A DNA stretch of 64,000 bases from assembly GCF_000003815.2 (NCBI RefSeq), contig NC_049987.1, forward strand, positions 8,883,100-8,947,099, given 5' to 3'. The DNA comes from Branchiostoma floridae. Lineage: Eukaryota > Chordata > Leptocardii > Amphioxiformes > Branchiostomatidae. Within the stretch, counting starts at the first letter, position 1. Every line of letters begins with the position of its first letter. Below are positions 1 to 61,349 of the stretch, piece after piece. Made by a program: the position numbers and the translations under genes. The notes below the pieces were generated by a model, which was not told where the DNA came from, did not search any database, and saw only the letters and a program-made list of their open reading frames with translations.

Positions 1-1646
1 ATCTGTAATAATATTCCATTGGACTATGAAAAACTAATCAATCCAGAAACATTCTCCAAATGTACTGAAATTTGTTGTTGGAAATTTAAGCTCTTTCACC
101 ATGAGAAACTAATAAAAGTAATTTTCAATCAATGTTCTTTTGACATCTGAGTAAACTTGAACAAAAAAGCTCAAAAATTCTATATTGCTGTAGTTTTATC
201 AACCAATCGTAGCTCTGGATATCACTTTGCGCCTACAGTTGGTCATGAAAAGAACAAATACTATGGTACAATAAAAGCGGGGTTTGTTTTACAGACAGCT
301 GCCAATTCAAGTGTTTAACAAGTCTTTTTTTTTAGACATGTTGAAAGGAGCTCCTTACAAAAGGAAGGCAAGAGAGAACAAGCAGGCCATGGCCTTTCTG
401 CGTATGTTGTAAGCCAAGGAGGTTAAAACATACACGGGTAAACAAAAGAGTAAAATTAAAACTTTGGTATTGTTTTCTTGGAACGTGCATACTGGCCACT
501 GTTCAAAAGAGGTTTCAAAAGTTAAGTTAATTTGAATGTGTCCTGTTGTTACCATTTGACTTGTTGACTGCCAGAAGAACAAGGGTGGTTCACTGACAAG
601 TCAAGATGATTTATTACATGGAAACTTATAGCATCATTATTTACTTAAAGGGCAAGGAATGACATACCTGAAGGCTGGTAACCTTTACCAACAATAACCA
701 TACACCTTGTGACATGAGGTTGTTGAGAATGTTGCACATCTTAAACTAGTGAACTCACAACTTCTGCTTGTCTTCCTTTTTTTCACAGCAACCCTTGTAC
801 ATCCACTAATTCACCCCTGTGGTTCCAAGTGATTTGGACCACATACTTTGCTCCACCCAACTTGTTTACATCGTTAATGACGTATCTGTAATGGCCTCCC
901 GTATCAAACTCTTTTGCAATTCAACTTTCAACATGATTTAGATAGTTAACATTAGAACATTTCCAACGATCTACGCAACGGTATTTGATCATATTTCAGA
1001 AGAAGGTTGATTTCACAAACACCCTTCTCGCGCGATCGTTGCCATGCGTGATTTTCGCGCGCTCCAGCTGATTACTCCCGGTGTTAATTTACAGCTTCTG
1101 AGCCGCGCGCCAAAAGGGTGTGTTACGTCTCAAGTGGCCACTTTACAGACTTGCAGAAACACTTCTCAAGAACACTGGAGAATGTCTTCCTGTCGCAGGT
1201 CTTTCTGTACAGACCAAGCCCTGTTTGTGCTAACAAAAGTTCGGACCAACCTGTTTGATGTAATTTTCATTTGTACAATGGGGGTTCGGCATTACAAATT
1301 CCACGATTTCCAGTTTCCTTGTTGGTCCCATGTGGACCGTTAGTTTTTACGACTTGCCTCTAGTTTTTTTCCTGCTAACGAGACGCAAAGGTGAATAACT
1401 TGAACACATCGTTCCCCAACTCCTTGTAGCAAACCACCAGTATCTTATCAAGAAAGCACCTGTATCGTCCTGACCGTAACGGATAAATACTGTCCTTTTA
1501 TTTCGTGTGTTTTGCCCCCTGATCTCTGAACACAAGCCATAATGGTCTCACCACGCATGGTTGAATGGACGAGCTTCTATCTTCACGCTTGAAAACTTCC
1601 GCCCAAAATGTGGTCAAGGTGAGTAAAAAGCTGCTGGAGTCGCAAA
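1..1646. other. No gene recognised
   Basis: AT-rich sequence with short open frames only. None has recognisable domains, coding-like codon use or a convincing splice context. A more GC-rich patch lies around 1025-1130, but nothing in it can be assigned. Confidence 0.5.
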
Positions 1647-3005
1647 TATACAAAAGTAACGGTCTCCTCTGTCAGCACTGGAACACCAGTGCTGAAGTGG
1701 TCGTCAGCACTGGAAGTCCAGTGCTGAGCCGCCGTCAGCACTGGAAATCCAGTGCTGAGCCGCCGTCAGCACTGGAAATCCAGTGCTGAGGCAGCTTCAG
1801 CACTGAGTGTCCTCCTGTCAGCACTGGAAATCCAGTGCTGAGGACGTTTCAGCACTGGAAATCCAGTGCTGAGGACGTTTCAGCACTGGAAATCCAGTGC
1901 TGAGGACGTTTCAGCACTGGAAAGCCAGTGCTGAGGACGTTTCAGCACTGGAAATCCAGTGCTGAGGACGTTTCAGCACTGGATTTCCAGTGCTGACAAA
2001 TATTCCGCACTGGAAACCGAGTGCTGAAGCCGCCGACTCTAGCGACACGACTCAAGGCGGCATGAGCTGCTGTTTACAATTATAACGAAATTAACCTAAG
2101 TCTAAAACGTCTTCAATCACGTTAGTAACTTGTCAAAACAACTGTGGTAACGTTATATACATAGATATCTACCGCAGCTCGAGCCGTAAACATGGTCCAT
2201 TACTCATTCACCTCACATGTAACGCCATCGTCTAACGTTTAATTTTCTTGGCCAAAGGTCATTGGAAGGTCCCAATTTAGTTAAATGATTCCCGAGCCAC
2301 CGAAATGATTCCCGAAAGGGCTATATCTATCACATTCACACAATTCAATAAAAGCTCAAAGTCATGGCCTCTTTTTATTCTTTCATTATTTCATGAAATA
2401 AAACTGTTGTTGTCAATGTCATGTGTAATGTCAATCTCCGCCAAACAAGGTAACAAGTCGAAAGGAAATAACTCAGCCATACGGACGCATGCTACGAATG
2501 AATATTACGTTCAGCACTGGAACGTTCCAGTGCTTTATAATCGTCAGCACTGGAAGCCCAGAGCTGAAGTTTTTTCAGCACTGGTCTTCCAGTGCTGAAA
2601 AGTTCCCGAGCACTGGAAAATCCTGTGCGGAACCCGTTACTTTTGTATATCAGCACTCGGTTCCAGTGCTGACGCCGGTTTCAGCACTGGGTAACCAGTG
2701 CTGAATGACCTTTGAACTGGCTCACCGCCTCTCCGCCGCGAGTTCAGCACTGGTACCCGAGTGCTGACGGCAGTTCAGCACTGGAAAACCAGTGCTCGGA
2801 AAAGTTCAGCACTGGAATTCCAGTGCTGAGGGAGCTTCAGCACTGCAACAAGGCCGTTCAGCACTGGAAAACCAGTGCTGACGTTTCTTCAGCACTGGAA
2901 AACCAGTGCTGACGTTTCTTCAGCACTGGAAAACCAGTGCTGAGGCCGATTCGACCCATTGATTCAGCACTGGAACACCAGTGCGGAACCCGTTACTTTT
3001 GTATA
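1647..3005. repeat. Palindromic minisatellite (hairpin array) bounded by inverted repeats
   Basis: Two blocks (about 1672-2027 and 2512-2986) hold roughly 26 units of about 31 bp. Each unit is a near-perfect palindrome with arms CAGCACTGG and CCAGTGCTG around a short variable centre (AAAT, AACA, GTAA, TCTT and others), followed by a variable spacer of about 8-10 bp. In the first block five consecutive spacers read GAGGACGTT, which shows recent tandem amplification; elsewhere spacers differ. A few units keep only one arm (near 1799 and 2841). The whole tract is bounded by an exact 16-bp inverted repeat, TATACAAAAGTAACGG at 1647-1662 and its complement at 2990-3005. A third, inner copy of the complement lies at 2634-2649. 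About 480 bp of non-repeat sequence separates the blocks. The sequence shows the structure directly; mobility or function is unknown. Confidence 0.9.
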
Positions 3006-6000
3006 CTTGCGCTGGAGTCTACACACGACAACTTACCTGTTTCCTGGCCGGATTCTGGCCTGAACCGTCCGGCTGGACAGAAGTTGCGGTCCACACCTCA
3101 GAGGTGGCCATGTTCGTCTGCTACAGGACACCTGTGGGTGGGTCCAAATGTGGGCGGGGGTGTACCTGTTACTGTTCACAGTAAACACAGAAAGTTCCAA
3201 GTTAAAAGCGCCCCTGTTTTCATGAACCGATCCCCTGACACCTACTGTAATCCATCTGTACAGACTCACTGGCCTCTGTCGTGATGGGCCCGCTCTAAAA
3301 AGTTTGATAAGTTTTGTTATCGTATTTTGTTGCAACACACCGCCCATTTTTGGTTCATTCCATTCGATTCCAAGCTAAGTAACTATCAAACCTTTCCCAG
3401 GCAAATAAAGTAACAACGGCAATAACAAACCTTATGTATTTAAACGTCATTCCTTAAATTCTTTATCCATCATGGCTAAAAACAAGTATTTCAGTGCTGT
3501 CATGTCTCAGAATTTTAGAGAAAAGAAAAAAAATCCTTGTTGGTTTTAGCTCTTATGTTCAACTTGGTTCTCTCACAACCTTTTTGCCTTGCCGCCAGGC
3601 AAGGCTTTACGCCAGCTTTTTTCCATGGATCAATGGACGGACCTTTTAACCCAGCCCTTCCAAAGCCCCTTCCAAAGGCCCTTCTTTCCTTGCCGAGATT
3701 CATGGCTTAGTTAGACAATGGTACATTCCAGGCGAGTATTAAAACGCTCTTCTAGACGCATGTTACTGTATGTGGTCCAGCGTAATAAATCTACGCTTTA
3801 ACTCACCATGTTTATATAAATATATATCACAAATTGCATCAGAAGGAACTTAGTTTGTAATAAAAAATAATGCATATTCATTGTGGGTCAAAAAGTTTTA
3901 CAAAACCTGTTTAATGTGCCAATAATTCATCTGACATAAATTATGATAATGAGGGGGGGGCGACATGTGGAACTCGGGATTTTTAAGCGTAGAATCTAGT
4001 CTAACTTACCAAAATAACATAAAATACGCGGCAAGGCACAGCTTTTTTAAAAAGATTTCTTGTTATCCTAGATGTACTAGTCATGAACGTTACTTAAATA
4101 AGTTCTGGTATCCTGAAAAGCAATGATAACAATGCAAAACAACATATATGGATGCTTCAATAAAGTCATGATGTCATCTTTGCCCATATTCTAGAAATTA
4201 ATAGGGCATTTTGAATAAAATCAATGATAAAGTATAACGCTAGTCTGGACTCTGGATCATGTTAAAGTGTCTTGTACATTTGTATATTGTTCAGTCATCA
4301 GCGATAGCCCATTGTATTGGCCGTCGGCTAGTTGGTTTAAGCCTAAGCATACAGCCAAATAAAATCAAATATCCTTTCACACAATCAAAATTGTTACATG
4401 ACTTAAGAAAGCAAGAACAACACAAACAAGTTGAAGGGTTTCACACCAATGCACTTTGCAGTGTATTTATACAGCTCACATTGTGTCAACAGAGAAGTTT
4501 GGCGCACAACAGAAACAGTTGATCTCCAAATTATCAAAAAAATGTGATGTGTAATCATGTAACATCAATGCTATCAAATCTAAGTGCATTAAAAAAGAAG
4601 AATCTCTTGACTGGCAAACTTACCCCCTATGCAAGCAATTACTATTTCCCCGAACAAAAATGTAAAAGCATTGCACAACATGACTGAGAAGTTGAGCTTT
4701 CCATTTTGTTACATCTGATCACATTTTGAGGAAAACGCAAACTTAAAACAAGGGCAATTGATATCTATGACTAAAACAAGCTGTAACGTTAGCTAAAATT
4801 GTTCGGACACTATAGCTGAGCTATCTGATTCCTTAGTTCTTTTTCTCTTAGTTTCTTTTCATTTGAACTGACATTACACAATCACAGTTTAATCAAGAAG
4901 CATGGATTGAGATAAATCCAATCTAGAACCTTATGCAAAGTAGAAGATAAAACAATTATACACTGTATTCTGTCATATATACATAGTACATGTGCTGACA
5001 ATTTTTATAACTAAGGAATCAAATAAATGTGGTATTAAGGACATTACAACACGAAGTGAAGAGTAGAAGTATATTCGATATATTATCAAACATGAAGCTT
5101 ATCAAAAAGACAACCAAACACTACAAACATGAAAACTATCTAACATGTACCGGTTGCTCACATATAACAGGCATACAGTAGTTGCACCAGTAAGACACCT
5201 ATTGAATAAATCTAGAAATTGAATTCAGAGACATTGAATAAAAAAAAATGCATAGAAAAACATGATCCGTAGTTACAATATTTGCTAAAGCTGTGTTCTC
5301 CATTTTCTATCTGCCAACCATCACAAACTTGCATGCATTTGCATTCCGTCATACTAGCCATTCATGCACTGCAGTACCTCTCTGAAACAACAGGTGTCTC
5401 TTTTGTAACTGGAGAGAATGTTTTAAAGGCATCTCTAAAGGCAATGCTCATAATACATGTGAAATAATTTCATATTGAGAGTAAACACAACATATCCAGT
5501 GTGTAAATAAACATGTTCGTAGAGCTGAGAAAAGAGGGAGCTACGATAGCACACATACTATAAAGTTTTACACCTCTCAGCTTTATTCCATAAGTCTCTC
5601 CTTCATTTACTGTTTTAAAACATATTCCACTGTCACATGTCCTTGACAGATAGTCACAAACTCATTCAATTGACACAAATACAATGAATTAAGTATCATT
5701 ACTGGAATCAACATTACTGCACACACCAGTTTGACTTCACCCTAGATTTACATGTACCACCTGCCTAACCTAGTAATGCTAGGGGCACATTTCCAAACCG
5801 GGGCCTGGCCAGGCTGTTTTAAGAAATGAAAAATAAAAATGTATACCCACAAATATCAAGTCACGCCCTTTTTACGTTTTGTGTATTTTGGTATCTTCCA
5901 TCACAAATGTTCAAAGGAGTTCATATATTTATAATCCAATATATCAAGGTATCAATAAATCTGGAAATTTGAGGGATAGAATGCCATGTGATGGACAAAA

Positions 6001-12900: not shown

Positions 12901-15900
12901 CAGGTGCAGGTGCAGTCAACCATGCCTACCATATTCAAACAAACCATCAAAAGAACTTTGAATAAGGGAGGAACCAGGCATACTGGCATGCCATTGCTTT
13001 TTCAAATCTCCATGGTCTCAGATGCAAGGTTTGATTTTTGCTTCCATTCTAGTTGAAGACCCTGTCAGTCCTAAATAATGTTCAAGTTTCTGTAAAAAAA
13101 AAAATCAATTCCACTGGCCCATGATAGCTTGCATTGCACATTCACTCGACTAACACAAGACAGACTAGTTTGATTTTCATTTTTGTAATCCTAATTTTTT
13201 TTCTTGCTGGCTTTGGTATTTGGAGCCCTGATGTGTATGGCATGTCAAAATATCCCCTGCACTGATTTGAATTATAAAGAACAATTTGTTTGAAAATCAA
13301 TACACAACCATGGCCTCACTGTGCAAATAGTTTGAAAATGAACTTTGTACCTTGAACTGATTTGATGTAATTATAAACTACTGCACTCGACAGTTTGTAT
13401 TTCATCTTGGAGTTTACATATGTGCACCTGAAATAATCAAACATTACCAATTTACAGGTAAGCACTTGCAATTGACTCAAGCAGAAACTGGGTGTGATTT
13501 TTCATCACAAACAGTAAAATTAGAAATTACATCATCCAGTCATCATTGATTTGAGCTGACCAGCACATGACCAATCTGGAATGTTTACATTATTGGATAT
13601 TTCATGGTGGATTATACCAAGAAGAGGAGGGCGTTTACAAGAACAGAATGTTTTCAATCACATCTGTGCAATATTTGCATCGAAAACTGGCAACAATGGC
13701 TAATACAACATAATGGATGACAATATAACTTTGCTAAACAGCTAAACTGCTCTCCAGTTTTCAGCAATGGAAAAGTTTATTTTTCATGGTTGGACTAATC
13801 TATGGTAAACATAGCCTGAAACCTGGACTTTAAAGTTTAACTTGGGTGGAGAACTGCCACAGAGAAAAATCATGGCAGCTGCAACGTCAAGTCTGGGGAA
13901 GGAGATTCAAGAGGAACTGTCCTGCAGCATCTGCCTGGAGCTGTTCACCAGGCCCAAGATGCTGCCCTGTCAGCACACCTTCTGTGAGGACTGCCTTCAA
14001 GACCATGTAGGGGTTCAAATTGCCTTCCAGTGTCCAACCTGCGAGCTACAGGTCAAAGTACCATCCCAGGGGATCACAGGCTTACCTGACAACAACCTGG
14101 TCACTATTCTGTGTGGGAGACTGCGGAAACAGGGGGCAGCACCTGCGGAAACAAGGAAGCAGCCCCAGTCTGGAAACAGGTGCAGCTTCCACCCTACTGA
14201 AGAACTGAGGCTGTACTGTAAGCAGTGCCAGGTGCCAGTCTGTAACGAGTGTTTGGATGAAACCCACAGTGACCACAGCACCATCACCATCAAGAAGGCC
14301 TCACAGGAGAAGAGGGCTCCAATCCAGGCACTCATCAACGAGGGGAGGAACATCCTAGAAACGTATCGCAGTTCCCTCCAAGGGATCAATGACACAGAGA
14401 AAACCCTACAGGAACAGAAGCAGCAGACGGAGAAGAGCATTACAACACTGTACAACCAAATGGCACTCGCACTGCTGAAGGGGAAAGACAACCTACTGGA
14501 TGAGGTGGAACAAAACCACAGCCAAAACATAGCCGTGTTACAGAATGAACGGGACAGGATCTCAACCGACGTGGATGAACTGTCTGCTGCCTGTGACAGG
14601 GCGGAGCAGGCCTGGAGAGGTGGGCTGGAGTTTCTGGCCCAGGAGACGACTCTGACAGACATCTTAGGGAAGTACAGAGCAAAGGGGACGCCAGCTCCGG
14701 TACAAGCACAACTTGCCGTGACAGTGTTTCAGCCCACTGATGCAGCAGTGCCGGTTCTGGGACATGTGATGGTCCAGTCTCCCCCATCTGCACCAAGCTC
14801 CATCCCCGCAGCACCACCTACATCCAACAATGCTGCAGCCAGGGTCATAGGTCGTCGCCATAGCAGTCAAAATGGGGTTCAGGCAAAGAAAGTGTCCTTT
14901 GGCAGAAAGAGATCAGATATAGAGAATATCTCCCTTCTGACCAGCCTGGCTTCTGCAGATGATGATGTTGCATCAGAGGGCACAGGTCATCACCATGGCA
15001 ACCAACACCAAAGACAGCAGCAGGTGAAGAAAGTATCATTTACAACATCAGATGATGAAGTTATCTCAGGTCAGAACCATGACCTTCACACAGAGCATCA
15101 GGATCAGAGCCTGACGTTTGGAGGAAAAGGACCAGAGGCAGAAAACCTCGACCTTCCCAGCGGAGTTGTGGTATCAGAGGAAGGTGAAGTTTTTGTGGGA
15201 GACTACAAAGACCAGAAAGTCAAAGTCTTCACACTTGAAGGAACATTTGTCCGCCAATTTCCAACAGTCGTGCAAGACGGGAAGAAGATGGAGCCCCACG
15301 ATGTGGCCATGGATGAAGTGGGTAACCTGTGGGTGGCTGGGAGCACAACCTCGGCAGAGCTGGCTGTACAGTACACCAAGCGGGGGCGACTACTGAGCAC
15401 GATCAGCCTACAGAAGACAGGACAGGTGAGAGGGGTCGCTGTAGACAGCAAAAGGAACCACATCCTTGTTACACAAGCCACACGGGAAGTTGACAAATCT
15501 AATGGCGTAGTGCAGGTGTTCAGCCCAGATGGAACACTTCTGAGAACTGTGGGGGGAAAGCCAGCTGCCTCGTGGCAACAAGGACTGAAGGTTCCACAGT
15601 TCATCGCGGTCGACGGGGAAGGGAACATTCTCGTGTCCGACTGCCACAGTCACCTCATCTTTGTGTACGGCGCAGAGGGACAGTTCCTGTTCAAGTTTGG
15701 AGGTGAGGGAAGCAGCAAAGGTCAGCTGAAAAGTCCACAGGGCATCTGTACGGACAGCTCGGGCAACATCATTGTTGCTGACAGGAAGAACAGTCGTGTG
15801 GAGCTGTACGACCAGACAGGCACGTTTGTCAGGCACATCGCTACGGGCTTGAGGTGGCCTTGGGCTGTTGCCATGGCAACACAGGGACAAATTGTTGTGA

Positions 15901-18900
15901 CCAATGCAGACAAAAGTACTGTCACCATATTTCAATCAGCTGAACTGAATTGAACTGAAACTATCAAATGATGCAAAGCAGAATCTGTTTTAGTTTAGTA
16001 CCTTTGATACTGTTTCAAAGAGTGTTGCTACAGTAACTAAATTCAGTATAAATCAGTTTACAACATATTGCATTACAGCCGGCTACATGCCCTATTTAAG
16101 TACTGATGGAAATTGTATCATGTTGAAGATCAAGGCATTTCTCCGCATTAATAAGCCTCAAGGCTTGGGGCTCCATGACAACATCAACATATTGACAGAA
16201 ATCACATTGTCTGCTTCCAGGAATTGAATAGTGTAATATTGAGAAATTCTCAGTTGGGTTTAAGCTAATATCTTGAGGCGATGTCTTGGATCCAAACAAA
16301 AATTGATACCAGAAAAAGGAGGATATTATTCTCCCAGGCTATTAACAAGAAAATCAATGTTTTGATATTAGGCATTTGAATGGTGAAAGCACAACATATT
16401 ACTTTCAAATTGATGGGTGCCTATCTTGATAATATCATTATGGACCAAAAATGGTATGGGAAAAGAAAGGTGTGTTGGAAGGGAAAATAACACCTGCAGG
16501 AGTAAAATTGTTTGATAAAAATAGCAGAAAGAAAACATTGCACAAACAGTTGAAGTCAAATAAAATTGATTTGAAATTCACATATTATGTATATAAACTC
16601 TCTGTCCAAACTAATACAAGTTAAACTTCTATTAGTTTGGACAGAGAGGGTTGTCATTACTGGCTACCTATACATTGCAAAGGTCTCTCCATCAGTTCTA
16701 GAGAACACTGAAAGAAAAATGCCTGCTTTATTTCTTCAGACTTAAGAAACGTCTTGATTGGTACTCACAGTGATAAGTAGTCTGAAGACATTGTCCACTT
16801 GTGCCTTGATGGCCGGCGCCTCCTCAACAAAGGTTCTCAGGGCATCCATGTGGTTCAAGGTCACCAGCATGATGTCCGAAGGTCGCAGGCACAGCGACAC
16901 TTGGTACTTGAAGGCCATGGTCATCAAGTCGTACAACTGAAAAAAATTTCTATCCGATTATCATATGTTGAAGGAATTTACTTTTGGTCATGCCTTGGGG
17001 GATTGAGGTTAGTCTAGTGTGTGATTTAGGGAAATGTATGATGATGAGAAGGTTTTGTAAAGCCATATCTAACAATGTGTAGTGTGTAGTGGGTAAGTAT
17101 ACTTAGTCCAATCATCAACCAGAAACATCCAGGGCCTAGCTTGTTTTTCTGGTTCAGAAAGGGTTACCCGTGTCTCAAAAAACCACCTGTTAGGATAAAC
17201 TGATGCAAATGTCTCAGACTGGGCTCGAAATTCTTTCATACATGGCATACATGCACTGATATGGGTAACATGCTTATTCACCTGCACCACTCTTCTGGAA
17301 AAGCAGGTTTTTGGCACAAATATGGAAACTGTTAATCAAGAAACAATTTGATTCTTAATCACTTCACATGCCATATTAATCAGACTAGCAAACAAATATA
17401 AACATTCAGTGGATACAAAAATGTAGCTGCAGTACATTTTATATATCCGCCAAATTACTGAAACAGACATCAGAAACACTTATAAGAAGAAAGAAATATC
17501 TGCACAGCTCCAATTTTACCTGCATTGCCCTGCATATACATGTGGCATTTCGAGCCCTGACAGAAGACAAAAACATCTAAAAATAGGGAAGACTTTTAAT
17601 GTCACCTTATCCATGCTGGCCGAGTTAAGCCTCATAATGGACGCATGAGCAAGTCTGTCAAACACCGTCCGCATCGCCTTCTTGGAATATGCCTCCTGCG
17701 GTTTGAAGAGTTCGTCCATGAAGCGCCGGTTGAACATGGTCCCGACAATGTCGTGAAGAACTACGGGAGAGACAGCAACAGTAGCATAAGAAAAATTACA
17801 GACGAAGGACTTATGATTTGAATGTACATTTGTATCATTTCTATGAAGACTGCAACATTTCTTTGTTGTAAGTAGTTAAAAAAGGATTTATCAAAACGAA
17901 ATTTCAAAATCCCTGAATCCCATCATCTCCAGCAGATAATTCCTTCATGGCAGGACCTGAGTAGATAGGGGAGAAGATTTTAAAACTCATTCAAATCTTA
18001 AGCCAGCTAGGAAAATCCAAAATGTGCCCTGAATCAGCTATATCTACCTCTCACATTGGGATTCTATGGACAAACATGCTGCACTGCATGTTATCACAGT
18101 GATATTCACCATGTTATTGCATTCATTGCTGTCAGTCTAACAGGCCGGATGTTTTCAGTGTTCCAAGAAAAGGGGTCAGGAGCTTTTCAATTAATGGCTG
18201 CTGTGTGCTCTTTGCTTCTCAGCAGGATTTCTCGCTCAGCTCTAATCATTTAAATTGCAAGGAAGGAAGAAAGAGTCAGGAACCAAAGCAAGGTCACAGC
18301 AATCAGTGGTAGTCAGTCTAGCTGTCAGCAACACAAGACTGGGGCAAAGGGTATTAGACAGTCAAAGCTTCCAGTTGCTTCTAAGTAGAATATGCAATTG
18401 TACATTCATTTGACAAATATTAGGACTATTAAATGAACACAATGTGACATCATTCATAATACTCAATGTGTAATTGCAACATCACTCAAACAACATCACA
18501 ATGATTTTAATACACTATAATTATAGCTTCTGTCATTACCTTTGCCAGAATGGCTAAGGTTATGTTTTAGGCTTGTGAGTCTGTGTGTCTGTCTGTCTGT
18601 CTGTCTGTCTGTGTGTTAAGGTGAAAGGTCACCATTAGAGACATGCGCAGACCCGGCAAAATGATGCCATAGAACCTGGTTTGTTAACAGTAAGTTTAGA
18701 GGCCTCTTTATTGGGAAATGTTGGCATTTTGGAGCTGGAAATTACAGGTAAGAGTTCTGGTTATTTCATTTTGCAAAAAAAGTATGTTTTTAGCAATGTT
18801 TTTGGCTTCCTGGGCAGTATAGAATATGTGTTGTTTACATTGTTTAGATGCTGTCCTCAAAAGGTCAAAAGGTCACCCGGGTGCGTTTGGCTGCTTTGCA

Positions 18901-28305: not shown

Positions 28306-31300
28306 ATGGCGACGACCATCGGTGAACATTCGCCGGGCGACGAACTTTACAACGCTTTCAAGTACATGATCTTGTTCTCTTTGTGTTTTGCCTTCTTCTC
28401 ATGGAGGAACATTGTGAAGAAGGGCCGTCCCCCGTGTATGGACGGCTGGATCCCGTGGTTCGGCTGCGCCATCGACTTCGGAAAAGCCCCTCTTGACTTC
28501 ATCGAAGAGACAAAGCGGAAGGTATGATCGATCATGCCATCTGTGGTCGCCCCGACCTTTGATCTTCTCTTATTCTCCTGTCAGCAAGTCTGTTCTGTGT
28601 CAGTCTTCATACGTTATCTATGTGGACTGTAGCACGGAGTGCCACGCACACTTTTAAGGCACGTTTACTGACGATTTAGCTTTGTTCGCATCACAAACAA
28701 AATGATGTAGCAAATTAGATTAGGAACCATTGTAATTCATTTATCATAAATACATGATGAAAGCGTCACGGTCACAACTCATCAAATAATATACCAAATC
28801 AATAGCAAAACCTCCATAACACAGTATGCTCTAAATGTGTCCATGACTGTCAACTGCCAACAGATTAGTGGTGTGGTTTTCCGGACCATTTCCCTAATCT
28901 TTCTGACAGACCACGGTTATCTGATTACCCATCTCCCAGGGCGGTGGCTGTCAGTAGATAAACACAACTGCTCTACAAGATCCTGCCCTGGAAGGCTAAT
29001 CATTTTTAGTCTCAGGAAAAGACAAAGAAGAGAAGTTATGAAACTTATCATAACTAACATAATTTGTGATTTTAGAAGTCAGGTATTGAACTTTGAAGTT
29101 ATGTTCTTCTTCTGGGGTCACCACTTCAGTTGCACTCTCACACTCCAGTACTCCACATGTGCCTTTTCTCTAAAGGTCAAGTCAAGTCTTGGGGTCAGAG
29201 CTTCCAGGTCTTCCTTGGTGCAAGGTATGGCAGGAGGTACCCTGGGAAAACGCAGACTCCTAAGGAGGCACGCAAAGTTTACCGATCCCTACAACACACG
29301 CATGGAACACCTGCCGCCTAACACCCGGTCCCGCCGGCCCTCGTACCAGCTGGCCCCTACTAACACGAGCCTCTTTCGGAGAGCGATGTTGGGGACCGGC
29401 GTAAGTGGGGCCAGCTGGTAGTGGGGCGGGTGCATAGAGGCGGGAGGGCGCGCGTTAGGCAGGGGATCGGTAACTCTTATTTGCGACTCTTATTTGCGAA
29501 GCTTCTCGAGCAGGTTTCCCAGGGTAGGCAGGAGGGGGCAGACAAGAATGTGTGTCACACAGTCTGCTCCTGCCTGCAACCGCATACCATTTGCACATGT
29601 TTAGCTCTTTTCATCTTGGTAGAGCATTTTTCGGTGTCTAGTAACATCTGTCAGTCCATAGTTAGGCCACCTGTGTCCTACTCCCTTGCAACCTATACAG
29701 TTCCACTCCCATGTGTATGGCTTATCTCCATCTGCTTGTGTCCATCACTATATTTTCCCCGGCTCTTTGTTGATGGGGACATCCTGGAAAGTGTTTACTA
29801 GTATATGTACATCTTTGTATCTTAGCTTGGGTCAACTCCTCATAGGGAATACTGTTATTGGACTTTGTATCATGATATAAAAGACTAACATGTATCGGTA
29901 TCCTATGTGTGATATTCCAGCTGGGTCCAGTGTTCACCATAGTTGCAGCAGGGAGGTGGATGACATTTGTCACAGAACCAGAAGACATCACCACCTTCTT
30001 CCAGTCCCCAAACCTGGACTTCCAGAAAGCTGTACAGGATCCAGTCTCACACACAGGTAACTTCTCAGCCATACTCACACTAAAACCATGTATGTAGGTC
30101 ATGTATCCTATCGCTATCATTACCTAAATCAGGTATATTAGTATAGGAGGAGCTAGCCACCATGCATGGATGAGGAAAAATGAATAAAAAAACACAATGG
30201 GCCACAGACATACATGTATAGGAGTAGAGTATAGATCTTCGGTTATGTAGGAGTCTCACTCCAGTTGAAACAGCTCCTTTTGAACACCTTGATGTCTCTT
30301 CACTCAGCATACAGTCATGTTACGTTTATGTGTTTTGTCCAGAGCTCTATAATTATACATGAATGGATGATTTTCCATAACTTTGTCTAGTCTTGCCTTA
30401 TGGATGGATGGACGGACATGTAACAGAATCTTGTGATGTGAAGACAGTCCTTACATTATTCGACTTTATTCAGATCCACTTTTAGCTATTGCAACATTAT
30501 GTTGCCAGCTATTCTTCCAGTGGTCTACATAAAATACATTAATACACGCACAACATTACATACATACAAAACATAATATGTACATACCATATAGTATACT
30601 TATTTTGCTGACATACCCATCTTCATACAGCATATTTCTCTTTTCAGCCTCAGTGAGTACAGAGTCGTTCTTTCAGCACCACACAAAGATCCACGACACG
30701 ATAAAAGGGCGCCTGGCGCCCGCAAACCTGCACAGCTTCTGTTCCAACCTGTGGGGGGAGTTCAAGCAACAGTTGGAACAGCTGGAGCATCATGGGAAGG
30801 ATGACCTCAACACACTAGTGAGGAGGTAAGCTATCTCACTCGCTACTGCTACAGGGCTTGAAATACTTTTTTCTGCATACCTGCGCTGGTGCAGGTAACA
30901 TTGAAAATTACCTGCACCAGACAAATTTTACCTGCACCACTCTGAATTTAGGAAGAATACTAAAATTGTTGAGGAACCATTGCTATTTTTTTGTTTCATA
31001 CTTAATAGGTGGTAACAGTCGATGCAGCTAATAACAATCCACATACACCTATATCATATGACATTTACATATAAAACCCAGTACATGGACTAGTGCAGGA
31101 TAGGTGCAGGTAGACACCAGAAATACCTGCACAGCTCCAATTTTACCTGCACTAACCTGCATATGCAGGTGGTATTTCGAGACCTGTGCTATCATGTTTA
31201 TCTTACTTTGTTCCCCCTATTGGGGTTTTGTAACTAGGACACTGCCGTGGAATGCAGAGTACCCAAGTCAGCAGAAAATGCACCGCTTCCTTAAAATATT

Positions 31301-34300
31301 TTGCAACCAGTTGGCTGATACGCACACATGTTTTTACATATTTGTTTATACACATGGAGTCAAAAACTATTGGTAGAATTACACTTATTAAAATTAATGC
31401 ATAACCTATACAGGGGCAAAGCTGTATGAATTGAGCAACAGTTTGCTGTTATACTGTTTGCCCCATCTTTTATCACTGGTATAAGGAAACAGTGTTTGCA
31501 ATAAATGCTAATATCAACAATATGTACCTGCTGTAATTAATGTTGATTACTAAATAGATTGAACAGTGGGTTGTCATAATTATGTGTCCTTGTTATTTCA
31601 GGTGCATGTTTGCTGCAGTAGTCAACAACCTGTTTGGTGCAGAAAACGTGCCCACAGACAAGGACAGGATACAGGAGTTCTCTGATATCTTTGTCAAGTA
31701 TGATGCTGACTTTGAGTATGGGTCTCAACTGCCACCATTTTTCTTAAGGTACAAACTGGGTTCAGTCTTTGTCTTTGGAATAGTATAATGTCTATGTCAA
31801 TGTCCGACAATTGCTTAACTTTATCCTTATTGCCTAACCTCATATCAAATGCAAATTTTATCAATAGCAAAAGTAGCAACTTAAGGATTTTATTTCTTCC
31901 TTGGAAGTTTTAACTTCAATCCTACCATTATTTTATACTATTATAGGGAATGGGCAGAGTCCAAAAAGTGGCTGTTGTCACTTTTTTCAAGATCAATAGC
32001 TAATATGGAGAGAAAGGAAACAGAATCTCAAGTAAGTCCTTGAAAACTTGCATCAAGCCCTTCGTTAATATCATTGATATAGATTTTATTCTATGGCATA
32101 CAGCTTGCAAGAAATTACTTAGTTACTATTGGCAATTTTCCTAACATCTGAAACTCATATTGTACATGTAGCTCTTCAAGAGATCATACAGTATGACAAG
32201 TCATACCATGATTGACATGTATGTAAAGTATATTTTTCATCATTTTTCACTTCAGACTTTGCTGCAGTCTTTGACCAAAATGGTGGACAGGCCCCATGCA
32301 CCTAACTATGCACTCCTGATGCTGTGGGCCTCACAGGCTAATGCTGTACCTGTAAGTAGGGGGATTTAATTGTGAGGGAGTAAATAAAGCTACACGCATA
32401 TGAGTTAAAATCTTTGCATCCTGTTGCATTGTTCTTGATGTGNNNNNNNNNNNNNNNNNNNNNNNNNNNNNNNNNNNNNNNNNNNNNNNNNNNNNNNNNN
32501 NNNNNNNNNNNNNNNNNNNNNNNNNNNNNNNNNNNNNNNNNNNNAGTTTCTAAAGGAGTGTTCTTGTGTTTTTTTTACCCACAGATGAGCTTCTGGGTGT
32601 TGGCCATGATCCTGTCCAATGAGGATGTCCATGCTGCTGTTAAGAAGGAGGTGCAGGACAATCTTGGATCACCAGGTGGGGCTTCTGAATGGTCCTGAAT
32701 CCATGACTCTCTGTAGGCTTCAGATTTCATGCCAGTAAAACCTTAATTGACAGGCAGACTAAAATTAACCTAAGTACCATCCTCTGTAGATCCTTTCGCT
32801 TGCTAACCCGAGAAGGATTGAGCCAGCTGTCACTATGGAGGATGGTACTCACACTAGACTAAAATACATTGTGATTGTTACTGAAGGTGATGAACCAATC
32901 ACTGAGGAGGATCTGAAGAAGCTGCCCCTGCTGAAGCGCTGCATCATGGAGACCATCCGCCTCAGGTCACCTGGGGTCATCACCAGGGCTGTGGACAAAC
33001 CACTGAGGATCAGGGTATGTGGGAGATTCCATTATACAAGTTCTGGGAGAAAATCCTCTCAACTGCATGACTGCCTTTTGGCACACAGTATTTGCACCGA
33101 ACCCTGTCCATCAAGAAAAATAAAAAAAAATTTTCCCAGATAAAAAGGTGAAAGAAGTCCCTGAAGGTATACATACATAGAAGTTCGATCTATTCTATCC
33201 TTTGAAGGTTGATTATGGACTTGAATATTAGTTGAAAGAGAATGGTAAAGAAAATTTGGGGATTGCCAATGCATATCTTTCAAAGAAAATTACCCTGACT
33301 TCAGCAATGCTTCATGTTAACAATAAAGTAATAAATATCCAGAATTCCAACACCTATCCTTCAAAAGAAATTAGTCAGTGACTTCAGCAGTGCTCGATAT
33401 TAACAATGCTTCACTTTGTCTTCTGTAGAAATACATCGTACCTAAGGGGCACCTCCTGATGATGTCACCCTACTGGGCTCATCGCAACCCTAACTTCTTC
33501 CCTGAACCTGACAAGTTCCTCCCTGTAAGTATCCAACATCTTATATTGATATATTTAAAAGAATTATTCTTTGTAATTCTGATGTGAAGTTCTTGTCCAC
33601 TGTCCCATGTAAATCGTATTAGAGAGTTGTCCAATGAAATGTTGGCATTAAAATTACGATGTTCTATATTTTCTTGTCTGTGTCAACAGGACATCTTATA
33701 TTTGTACATTTGTCAATTTTTTTTCTTTGTAATTTTGATGTGTAGTTCTTGTCCACTGTCCCCTGTAAATCTAATTAAAGAGATATTCAATCAAATGTTG
33801 ACATTTTATTGACTATATTCTATATTTTCCTGATTGACAGGACCGCTGGCTTGACGCTGACCTGGAGAAGAATCTGTTTCTGGATGGGTTTGTTGGCTTT
33901 GGTGGTGGAAGATACCAATGTCCTGGGAGGTGGGGAGCCATATTTTTATACATCACAGTCACTTCTAGCCTGATTAAATCTCACTTATCTCACAGCCCGC
34001 CCAACATCCCACCACCAACCTCCTAGAGGAGCCAGTTACATTCCTGGACAGGAGAGATTGTGTTAGACAGCCTAAATCACCTCTAAAATCTTTCCACTTG
34101 CTTAATTATTCCTTGCATATCTTAGTACTTACATGTCTAACCTTCAATGGCATATTAGTATCTCTACATTGTGATCCTCTGTTTATGATAGATGTACTTT
34201 TACTGTTTTAGATTTCAGCTCTGTCTTATGTGAGTATATTGACTATGTTGTAAAGAAATGATTAGCCATAATAGCAATGACCAGTCTAATTTTCCCTTAT

Positions 34301-46592: not shown

Positions 46593-56779
<10,187 letters not shown>

Positions 56780-58986
56780 CCTAAGCAAAGTTCGGCTTTT
56801 TTTAATCAACCAAAAATCAACACAGTTCAAACTCTCCCTCGTGCCAATGCGGAAGTCACGTTTCGTCTGCTGAAATCTCGCGCGATTTCGATCAGCCGAT
56901 GCCATTATGTGTTATGGGGGGAACTAGATGTTGGTATGTTTATACAGAACTTAAGTATAGTATGCCACCTAACATTAAAAAAATTGTCAAGTCGTGCCTG
57001 AAGAACTTCTCTATTTCGTTAGTATTACACGATACAGTTTACAGTCTATATTACTTCCTTATAAATGATGGTTTCTTCCAGTTTTACCAGTTGAAATCAT
57101 ACTACAGTAAGTGAATCCTAAAAAGGCATTGTTTGTGCCACATCATGACGACAGGTTAGACGACTTCACGGCCATTTTCACCCGATATCGCTCTTCCTCC
57201 CAACAGCTGTGCAACTACTCTTAAATGTTCAACAATTCGACATAAGTCTAACCCACCGTCCGAGAGTTATGGTTCTTAAACAACACCAAGACGCAACCAG
57301 GAAGTAGACGAGACAATTAGTTATATGGCCCCAATGTGACCGAAGACAGGTAAGGCCATACTTACACATACTGATACATAATCGCAACTATTCTCTCATA
57401 TTCTAACGTCCTTTAGCTTTCCAAAGATAAAAGGAATTTGTCTTGGGTAATTCTTCAAAGCCCTGCACCTTCTTCATAGTCGCACAACTGTAAATCCCTT
57501 TCCTATAACTTCTGCCCAGTGTGTTACTTTTCAGAAAAACCGGAAGCGACGATAATAAGGTCTAGTATGCTGCTTAGTGCTGTATACATCTACCCCAGGA
57601 TTAGTCGCTATAGCTTCCTGAGATTAGTCAACTAGTCCTGGCTATGTCGTTACGTCTAAGGTTTTATGACTTTACGGGCTGCCGGCAAATGCTTTTGAAT
57701 ATGCAATACTTGTTTGGCAACATGGAATGCAGACTATCAGACTTATCATGGCGTGTGAGACTCAGAAACATTTTAAGAATGGAGTTCGTGGGAGCAGAAT
57801 GTTTCATGGGAGTCAGAATGTTGAATCTAAGTCGTCATTATGACCAGCCACAGTTATGTTTTCAATTAGGCCGTCAGTAAAACTCTTTGCTGAAAATTTT
57901 GTGTTTCGTGTTTGGCATTCACATATTTCACGTAACACTTTGCGAACGAAGTGGACTGCAATTGTAGCATTCTTTGGATTCTTTGTAGACTCCAGTTTTG
58001 TACAGATCATATCTGAGACGAGGCTAGATCGCAGCTGTACAAATGTTGCTATATTCGTATGTCGGGTTGTTTGTACTGTGTCCAATAAACAGGTTTTTCA
58101 TGGTGGCGGCGGTGGCAGACGTTTTCCGATGTGTTTACGGGTCAGTGCCTGTGTTGATGACAGGTCGGCGTGTTTGGCGTACACAGACACACCTGACACA
58201 CCTGTGGTAACCCGTGCTACCTGGCACGGAGATCTTCAAGTAGTTAACTCCCTAAAAGCACATCCTCTCGCACTCTCACTTGCAATTTATCACTGTGACA
58301 ATTATCACAATACAGATAGATTATATTGCAAAGACTTTGTAAACGAAGACACGAGACCACACGAGTCGTGTTTGTTAGACATAGACTTTTTTTAAATTTT
58401 ATATGCAGGGTTGCCCACAACAACCTGTGAAGCAAAAAAAGCATAAAAATTCCGCTATCTTCTAGTTTATCTATTTCTAGAGGATGTACACGTCACCTAT
58501 AGCTACTGGAGGTTTTCAATTATTTCTGGGGGGTCCCCCATTCTCCTACGCAGAGAGTCCAACGTCGTCGCAAATTCCTGGGATAACAGGGGTTTTGCGA
58601 CGACGTTAGGCCCTCAGCGTGCGAGAATGGGTACCTCGTATCTGGCATAAAACAATATGACATTACAATATATGTTTATATGATAAGAACACAAGAGACG
58701 AAAGGTCGACTAATAAAGATAAACCTTCATAAAAACGTAGAAAGCGTGACTAACTGATAATGCAAGTGAATCAGGCTAACTGATCACAATAATATATGAT
58801 CATTCAGCACTCAAATCATAATAACAGAATGTCCGAAAGTCAAAGTATATCGCTGCTTACTTAGTAAGGCTAAACTTGTTAGTTGTTCCAGGCACAGAAG
58901 ACGCTCACTGAATCTATCTCTATTGTAAAAGAAATGTCTTGCTCTCTTGTTGTAGGTAACCTTGCACTCATGTTTGTGTGGAGAAG
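56780..58986. other. ORC3 promoter side and BTB-Kelch upstream region
   Basis: ORC3 and the Kelch gene diverge across 2.2 kb. An acceptor-like CTTGTTGTAG/GTAACC at about 58957 suggests that the Kelch start codon lies in a second exon, with an untranslated first exon upstream. A plus-strand frame at 57856-58395 is not recognisable as a protein. Confidence 0.45.
58536..58631. mobile_element. Small foldback element
   Basis: Two arms of about 40 bp, CCCATTCTC...AACGTCGTCGCAAA and TTTTGCGACGACGTT...GAGAATGGG, face each other across a loop of about 15 bp. Confidence 0.8.
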
Positions 58987-61349
58987 ATGGCTCAGAGTGG
59001 CTACCCGAAGGATGGAGTACTGATCGGCACGTCCCGACCTGGCGTCACGCCCAAACGTGTCATAAAACACGTCATCCGGTGGGAGAGCCAAGAACTTAAT
59101 TCTGACATTGACGTGCAGAACAATGGCCGCCGGAACTCCCGAAACTTCACAGTCACCACTCACGGCGACTACGTCCTACAGGGTTTCCGGCGCCTCAGGG
59201 ACCAAAATGACATGTGCGACGTCACTCTCCTGGTGGATGACGCGTCATTTCCGGTCCACCGTGCCGTCATGGCGTCCGTCAGTGTCTACTTCAAGTCCAT
59301 GTTCAATCAGGAGTTCGTAGAGCGCTCGGCCGCAACGGTTCGGATTCACGACGTCTCAGAACAGATTATGAGAAAAGTGATTGACTTCGTGTACACCGGG
59401 AAGATCGAAGTGAACGTACAAGATGTACAGGATGTTTTAGACGCTGCTAGCCGGTTTCAGATCATGGGCCTAATGGGGGTTTGTCAGAACTTTGTAATCA
59501 GAGAAATTTCACTAGAGACGTGTATCGATATCCTGTACATAGCGGAGAGATACCATCTCACTGGCGTTGAAAACGACGTGGATTCCTATATTCTTAAGAA
59601 CTTCTACGCGGTGTCAAAGACGCCTGGGTTCTTCACTTTGAACATGGAAAAACTTTGTTTCTATCTCGGTAAGTCTTGGTTGTTTGCTGATATAAAGCGC
59701 CACGTATGCCATTCAACGAAAAAAATGGTAATATGAAATCATTTACATTCGACAATGTCGTTACTGATTTTCTGCTATTTGCGCTATATTCTATCACTAC
59801 ACATAGCCTATAAGCACACGTAAAACATTGTTAATCATACTTAGACATAAAGCATTACTTTCATGAAAATGATCTTTGTGCATGCTTGAAGGATACTCAA
59901 AGGTTTGAATTGTGTGGCCTGTATTGAAGCTATGACTACATGCACATATTAAACAGGCAGTAACCGGGTGAAGGGCTGTACGGAGATTGACTTGTTCCAC
60001 GCGGCCACAAAGTGGCTGCGGCACGAGCCTGACAGACTACAGATGGCGAGCACAGTGGTGGAGAACATCCGTTTCCCGCTCATCTCACCGTCAGACCTGG
60101 TGCAGTTTATACAGGTGACGTGCACCCTTTTTTTCCTACCCTTAGAAACCAGACTGATTCGAGCCGGCGCGGAAAGGGTTCGCTACCGATCCCCGCCAAA
60201 CGTGGACCCGCAATTTGCACCCGCCTGCAGCTGAAGGTCCAGCTGACCCCAACTTATTGAGAGGCAAGCGATAGTTAGGGGGCGGCATTAAGTGGGACCA
60301 GCTGGATACATGTAGTATGGCGGGTGTATTGCGGGCGTATTCTCCAACCAGATCCACGGTGGTGTAATACATAGTAACAAACCCACCGGTGGCCAATGGT
60401 CCCACTTTGGTAAGCTAACCTTCTTGGCTGGCTTTGATAGTATATTACGCCACCGTTGGATTGATCTGCTTGGAGATCATTGCGGGCGCGCGTGTGGCAG
60501 GATCGGTAACTCTTTCCCCGCGGACTCTTAGGAGTCTGGATGTCCCAGGGTATTTCTTTCCTTGCGTTTCCTTTCCGTTTGCGATTGTATCGTAAGCCGC
60601 GCTATGGGGGAGGGGAGTCGTTGACAGCACAACCATCTTCTCCTTGGTGCTGAAGGACCTTCCAATGGTGAATTTGATGAAAGACAGAACGCCTTTGTTC
60701 TGCGTTTTGATGAAAACATTTTATTTTTCAAATTTTTCTACAAGGGCATTTTTTCATGGCGCTTTGAGCACTTGTATGATACTGTATTAATATACGTAAA
60801 TTTGAAACGTTGTTTTTTTTACCAGAGCGCAGAGTTCATGAGGACAGATCCCAAATGCATGGCTCTACTGAAGGAGGCGGCGGACTACCAGAGGTTAAGA
60901 TTCGCCCAACCCGTGCTGGTGTCGCCAAGGACACACATTCGGTAGGTAAATCTTTCGGTTTTTTCTTAGACATAATAAGGATGTCACTGAAGAAGTCAGT
61001 ACTTTTCTACCAATGACTTACGATCCTTCAAGTTACTAACGTTATGGTTACTGAGACTATACCAAACAAGTAAGCTGTAACAAAGGTTTTTCGGTGCGAT
61101 TCTGTTCCAATTCTGTACAAATATCTTCCAGGTCAGAATGCAACTCCCTGGTTACTATCGGTGGAGCGCACGCTGACGGCAGACCTAGTGACGTGGCGTC
61201 CTTCTACGACTATAAGATGAAGAAATGGCGGACACTGGTGAACCTGGAGGTCCCCGTGAAGCATCATGGGATAGCTGTCATGGGTGGCTTCATCTGGGTC
61301 GTCGGAGGGATGAACAGAAACAGTGAAACTATTGCTACAGGATACAGGT

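Follow-up and report, generated by a model that had tools for sequence, protein, structure and literature searches.

The DNA between positions 1642 and 3010 of a 64,000-nucleotide stretch of the Branchiostoma floridae genome (the window, meaning the whole of the stretch that was analysed) is very probably a complete DNA transposon of the cut-and-paste type, 1369 bp long and non-autonomous, whose two ends carry arrays of a conserved 24-bp palindrome. The element is delimited by inverted ends and a flanking direct repeat. Its left terminal inverted repeat (1642–1662, plus strand) reads GCAAATATACAAAAGTAACGG and agrees with the reverse-complemented right end at 20 of 21 positions, and the right terminal inverted repeat (2990–3010) reads GCAAGTATACAAAAGTAACGG on the minus strand. 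Immediately outside these ends lie the two copies of an exact 9-bp direct repeat, GCTGGAGTC, at 1633–1641 and 3011–3019, which are the only occurrences of this sequence on the plus strand of the window, with none on the minus strand. Inverted ends of 21 bp bordered by a 9-bp duplication are the signature of cut-and-paste transposition, and terminal inverted repeats with a directly flanking target-site duplication are features of the TIR-bearing (class II) DNA transposons. The first-pass annotation of this DNA had described an exact 16-bp inverted repeat as the boundary of the palindromic tract; that repeat is real, and it continues outwards across one mismatch to 21 bp, so that each end of the element lies five bases beyond the boundary that was supposed. 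The accompanying suggestion that the tract as a whole is a unit that can move or be copied is strongly supported by the exact 9-bp duplication flanking the 21-bp repeat, from which we infer that the element has been mobile in the past.

When up to three mismatches are allowed, the boundary 17-mer CCCGTTACTTTTGTATA has three matches in the window (1647 on the minus strand, 2633 and 2989 on the plus strand), compared with a mean of 0.17 and a maximum of 2 in 100 shuffles. When the window was scanned for inverted ends matching at 13 or more of 16 positions, spaced 60–6000 bp apart and flanked by a direct repeat of 7–10 bp, there were six hits with the element at 1642–3010 ranked top, and the same scan of five windows shuffled in 500-bp blocks returned 0, 1, 0, 0, and 0. 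The other five hits comprise two within the palindrome array and three elsewhere in the window, which may be other transposons. At the 1378-bp distance that separates the two copies of the duplication, the sequence right of the element gives a 9-bp match at one position in 59,513, and at four other distances at 0 to 3 per approximately 59,500 positions. Since the junction bases are ambiguous, they also allow a reading in which the duplication has 7 bp (CTGGAGT) and the inverted repeat 22 bp; on sequence grounds the 9-bp reading is favoured, since it requires fewer coincidences. The perfect duplication and the 20/21 match between the ends suggest that the element is probably fairly young. The analysis covered one copy of the element in one allele. 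It has a GC content of 48% and a CpG observed/expected ratio of 0.75, the corresponding values for the window being 40% and 0.49.

Inside the element, palindromes in numbers well beyond chance are arranged just within both terminal inverted repeats. The pattern CAGCACTGG-N4-CCAGTGCTG, with up to three mismatches, matches 21 times in the window, always between 1673 and 2986, and is absent from every one of 100 shuffles; the exact 9-mer CAGCACTGG and its complement are likewise confined, within the window, to approximately 1600–3100. A looser scan of that interval, using 10-bp arms with up to three mismatches per arm, recovered 24 paired palindromes, in 16 of which both arms are exact and in 21 of which the centre is 4 nt long. 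Earlier inspection had counted about 26 palindromes, a fair figure given 24 paired units and the good lone arms at 1797 and 2837, which have one mismatch each; there are also four poor lone arms with three mismatches, of which one lies beyond the element. The tract is discontinuous, falling into two clusters 483 bp apart. The left subterminal array (1672–2027) contains 11 palindromes, mostly at a 31-bp period, together with the lone arm at 1797, and the less regular right subterminal array (2511–2987) contains 13 palindromes and, besides the lone arm at 2837, perhaps also a decayed unit near 2711. Some runs are homogenised at the 31-bp tandem period, as in five units with the spacer GGACGTT. 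The single good lone arm in each array corresponds to a 21-bp unit, giving the 52-bp spacing (31 + 21), in the same orientation in both. The idea that the two arrays are direct-orientation copies of one another was considered and rejected: their spacers GGCAGCT and GGGAGCT agree at six of seven positions, a level reached by 10% of shuffles and thus not significant. Strictly, the inverted repeat of the element is only 21 bp long, and the arrays can cross-pair since their units are themselves palindromes. Between them lies a palindrome-free central region of 483 bp (2028–2510).

With 11 and 13 short palindromic units inside its two ends, the element has Foldback-like composite termini, and its superfamily can be assigned with less assurance than its mode of transposition, the Mutator-like superfamily being roughly an even call. 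Membership of some other superfamily, whether P/Galileo, Merlin, KDZ, or one as yet undescribed, is a distinctly possible if doubtful alternative. P and Galileo elements usually generate duplications of 7–8 bp, that of Galileo being 7 bp, and KDZ elements duplications of 8 bp, lengths that count against these groups for an element with a 9-bp duplication. Mutator-like target-site duplications are given as 8–11 bp in a survey (PMC6446971), a range that includes the 9 bp of the favoured junction reading, the alternative reading being 7 bp. The survey also cites Mutator-like elements as earlier reported from B. floridae, a point in favour of this superfamily, and its authors were unable to find the transposases of these elements (PMC6446971), a point for the others. 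Merlin is disfavoured because its ends are described as starting with GG, with a duplication of 8–9 bp (PMC8101967), and those of the present element start with GC. Repeat-rich ends are likewise described for Galileo (PMC3688188) and Tetris (PMC4079207), and no transposase was found by which the element could be classified: three of its eight stop-free stretches of at least 45 aa were searched against Pfam at limits of 0.01 and 0.1 (a 97-aa query being contained in a 105-aa query), and none gave a match, the central region being blank in the stretches tested.

By analogy, the nearest kinds appear to be the Mutator/Foldback-type elements Muta1 and Tm1, which provide precedents for this layout in combination with 8–9-bp duplications (PMC5225508; PMC3169594). 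Muta1 and related Mutator-like elements of Aedes aegypti are described as having an 8–9-bp duplication, subterminal tandem repeats that come after a short terminal motif, and non-autonomous derivatives with variable repeat number, an arrangement termed a type 2 Foldback structure; they differ in that Muta1 has nine 12-bp subterminal units within a 145-bp inverted repeat (PMC5225508), whereas here the units are 24-bp palindromes, mostly at a 31-bp period, in arrays unequal in unit number and spacers. The Mutator/Foldback element Tm1 of root-knot nematodes shares the 9-bp duplication, composite ends of variable short tandem repeats that are unequal in size within one element, and MITE-like members, and is set apart by units of 13–15 bp and by terminal motifs of 7 bp that are asymmetric and lie beyond the inverted repeat (PMC3169594). 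Rehavkus elements are likewise described with a 9-bp duplication and a minisatellite beside the terminal repeat; their minisatellite, however, precedes the 3′ end, they encode a PHD-finger transposase, and they are reported from arthropods and annelids (PMC6446971). The Tetris Foldback element of Drosophila virilis is non-autonomous, with an 8–10-bp duplication and tandem repeats in its ends, but these are units of about 220 bp within long inverted repeats (PMC4079207). In Galileo, a Drosophila element of the P superfamily, repeats inside the ends hold sites bound by the THAP DNA-binding domain of the transposase, which serves as a precedent for the binding of a transposase domain to end-internal repeats; its ends are nevertheless more than 1 kb long, with four long direct repeats of which two contain the binding sites, and it belongs to another superfamily (PMC3688188). 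No lancelet transposon of comparable structure was found among the literature matches listed, as judged by titles and the beginnings of abstracts, and neither of the element end strings was found in print in the 10 papers listed of 416 matching, only the 9-mer arm, which is a common string. The 21-bp end has no exact match in public viral contigs (a set from which records of the animal's own genome were possibly excluded), and the palindrome pattern has one exact match there, a lone palindrome whose surroundings, over 401 bases, contain no array. The element is of a known kind, and what is unusual about it is that the repeat unit is itself a rigid palindrome.

Comparison of the units bears on what the palindromes are for. 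Identity between units is 97% in the 5′ arm and 92% in the 3′ arm, against 55% in the centre and 36% and 29% in the downstream and upstream flanking 7-mers, respectively; collapsing units with identical downstream spacers (leaving 17) gives 95% and 90% for the arms, 46% for the centre, and 32% and 25% for the flanks. The arms are therefore held constant while the spacers are nearly random, as the first-pass annotation had perceived. Its further proposal, that hairpin-forming ability is what has been preserved, finds no support here, as none of the 14 arm changes among the 24 palindromes is compensated on the partner arm. This supports conservation of the duplex sequence and not of pairing, with 14 changes being too few for a strong exclusion. 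Selection on the hairpins themselves, through recognition of cruciforms or single-strand hairpins or through small RNAs cut from a transcript of the array, is accordingly an unlikely alternative. It draws on the folding of the two halves of the element as single-stranded DNA, which is far more stable than that of 100 shuffles each (z of −23.7 and −17.3), but in the lowest-energy folds many units pair with other units and not each with itself, and any array of repeated palindromes would be expected to give such extreme energies. A search of the window for structured RNA found no Rfam family at the gathering threshold, which also weighs against it. The loops offer this alternative some compatibility with past inversion: 19 of 24 start with AA, and among the remaining five ATTT, TCTT, and GTT start with AA when reverse-complemented, while GTAA and TACC do not; the unit at 1973–1996, once reverse-complemented, is moreover identical to its left-hand neighbour over all 24 bp. 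Occasional inversion of the centre via a hairpin formed during repair or replication would explain this pattern, a post hoc and weak proposal.

The spacing of the palindromes is suggestive of protein bound along the duplex. Distances between palindrome centres, apart from the 508-bp central gap, are 31, 31.5, 32, 32.5, 42, 44, 52, and 63 bp, each near a whole number of 10.5-bp turns (3, 3, 3, 3, 4, 4, 5, and 6, respectively). Measured against random spacings of 25–70 bp, none of 100,000 random sets was as good as all nine of the spacings other than 31, and a fraction of 0.00006 was as good as their seven distinct values; these values are not independent, as some equal 31 plus or minus a small indel and 52 is present twice. 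For the subset 31, 42, 44, 52, and 63 the fraction is 0.001, for 31, 42, 44, and 52 (picked by hand as least likely to be mutual copies) it is 0.006, and for 42, 44, and 52 alone it is 0.024. Clustering is also high at periods from 10 to 11 bp, the phase being nearest zero at about 10.4–10.6. A same-face placement of the palindromes along the helix is suggestive, with few independent spacings and these chosen by the analyst. Together, the conserved arms, the near-random spacers, the lack of compensated changes, and the near-whole-turn spacings make duplex sites bound by a dimeric transposase a better reading than selection on hairpins, and binding of the palindromes by protein seems rather likely.

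A third copy of the boundary sequence lies within the right array. The first-pass annotation had pointed to this inner copy at 2634, which is indeed present, in the same (direct) orientation as the right end; the duplicated segment, 2622–2649 on the plus strand, is identical to 2978–3005 at 27 of 28 positions and falls 5 bp short of the outer tip of the inverted repeat. Such close identity could indicate two elements or a nested insertion, with 2634 marking the true end of an older and shorter element, a reading that we consider very unlikely: with its outermost 5 bp missing, the inner copy directly abuts another palindrome, where a duplication sequence would be expected and none follows. Judging from the sequence, the right end has most plausibly been duplicated inside a single element, as has been described for plant Mutator-like elements with duplicated ends (PMC3310237). 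Least probable is a local palindromic minisatellite grown in place by slippage, with inverted boundaries that arose by chance or as part of the array, for although the 31-bp period, the homogenised runs, and the lack of a second copy of either palindrome or boundary elsewhere in the window at up to three mismatches would suit it, the 20/21 inverted ends with their exact 9-bp duplication, the 483 palindrome-free base pairs inside the boundaries, and the conservation of arms against near-random spacers do not, and the initial view that this is not just a local minisatellite is borne out by the ends and the duplication.

The surroundings of the element contain several further features. A predicted first coding exon, read by eye, occupies 3037–3111 on the minus strand, running for 25 codons from the ATG at 3111 to CAG, and the GTAAGT at 3036 on that strand is a good splice-donor sequence, which would place the start of the element 26 bp into the predicted intron. 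Animal-like genes in the window include a RING-B-box-NHL gene (13815–15950), an ORC3 fragment (49399–50019), and a BTB-BACK gene (58960–59733). A candidate short transposon of 289 bp at 29238–29526 has inverted ends TACCCTGGGAAA (13/16 over 16 bp) and an exact 9-bp flanking repeat, GGCAGGAGG. Another candidate transposon, of 1190 bp at 50030–51219, has 17-bp exact inverted ends CAAGGAGCTTTTATCAG and a 7-bp flanking repeat (ATATAGC); the Pfam matches of two of its stop-free stretches all fall short of the curated cut-offs, and no transposase is among them. A 91-bp segment at 32766–32856, about 220 bp from an assembly gap (32443–32544), has imperfect inverted ends and an exact 9-bp flanking repeat, GACTAAAAT. 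A 14-mer at 32762 also occurs in the centre of the 1642–3010 element; the window has three such isolated 14-mer matches, and this one is probably due to chance.

In the history that we favour for the 1642–3010 element, a transposase made elsewhere in the genome would have inserted it at this site, duplicating 9 bp. The palindromes would act as duplex DNA sites for the dimeric DNA-binding domain of the transposase or of a partner protein, and once bound they could recruit transposase to both ends, helping it to find and pair them. Palindromic sites need no orientation, and the arrays could therefore serve either end alike. Slippage or unequal exchange would alter the number of units, while selection for mobilisation would preserve the arms and leave the spacers to drift. 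A bolder and rather improbable extension is that the element represents a transposon family, possibly undescribed or of unassigned superfamily, whose ends consist of arrays of rigid 24-bp palindromic sites on one helix face, along which a dimeric transposase would polymerise as a regular filament and make the two ends equivalent without long inverted repeats.

The element offers a compact and testable case for why some transposons gather many subterminal repeats. Its unit is a clean dyad with a nearly fixed distance between half-sites, and the phasing of the units is suggestive, so that binding, assembly, and the dose effect of site number would be directly measurable. It also illustrates that a minisatellite-like palindromic array can make up the body of a mobile element, recognised by the duplication that flanks it.
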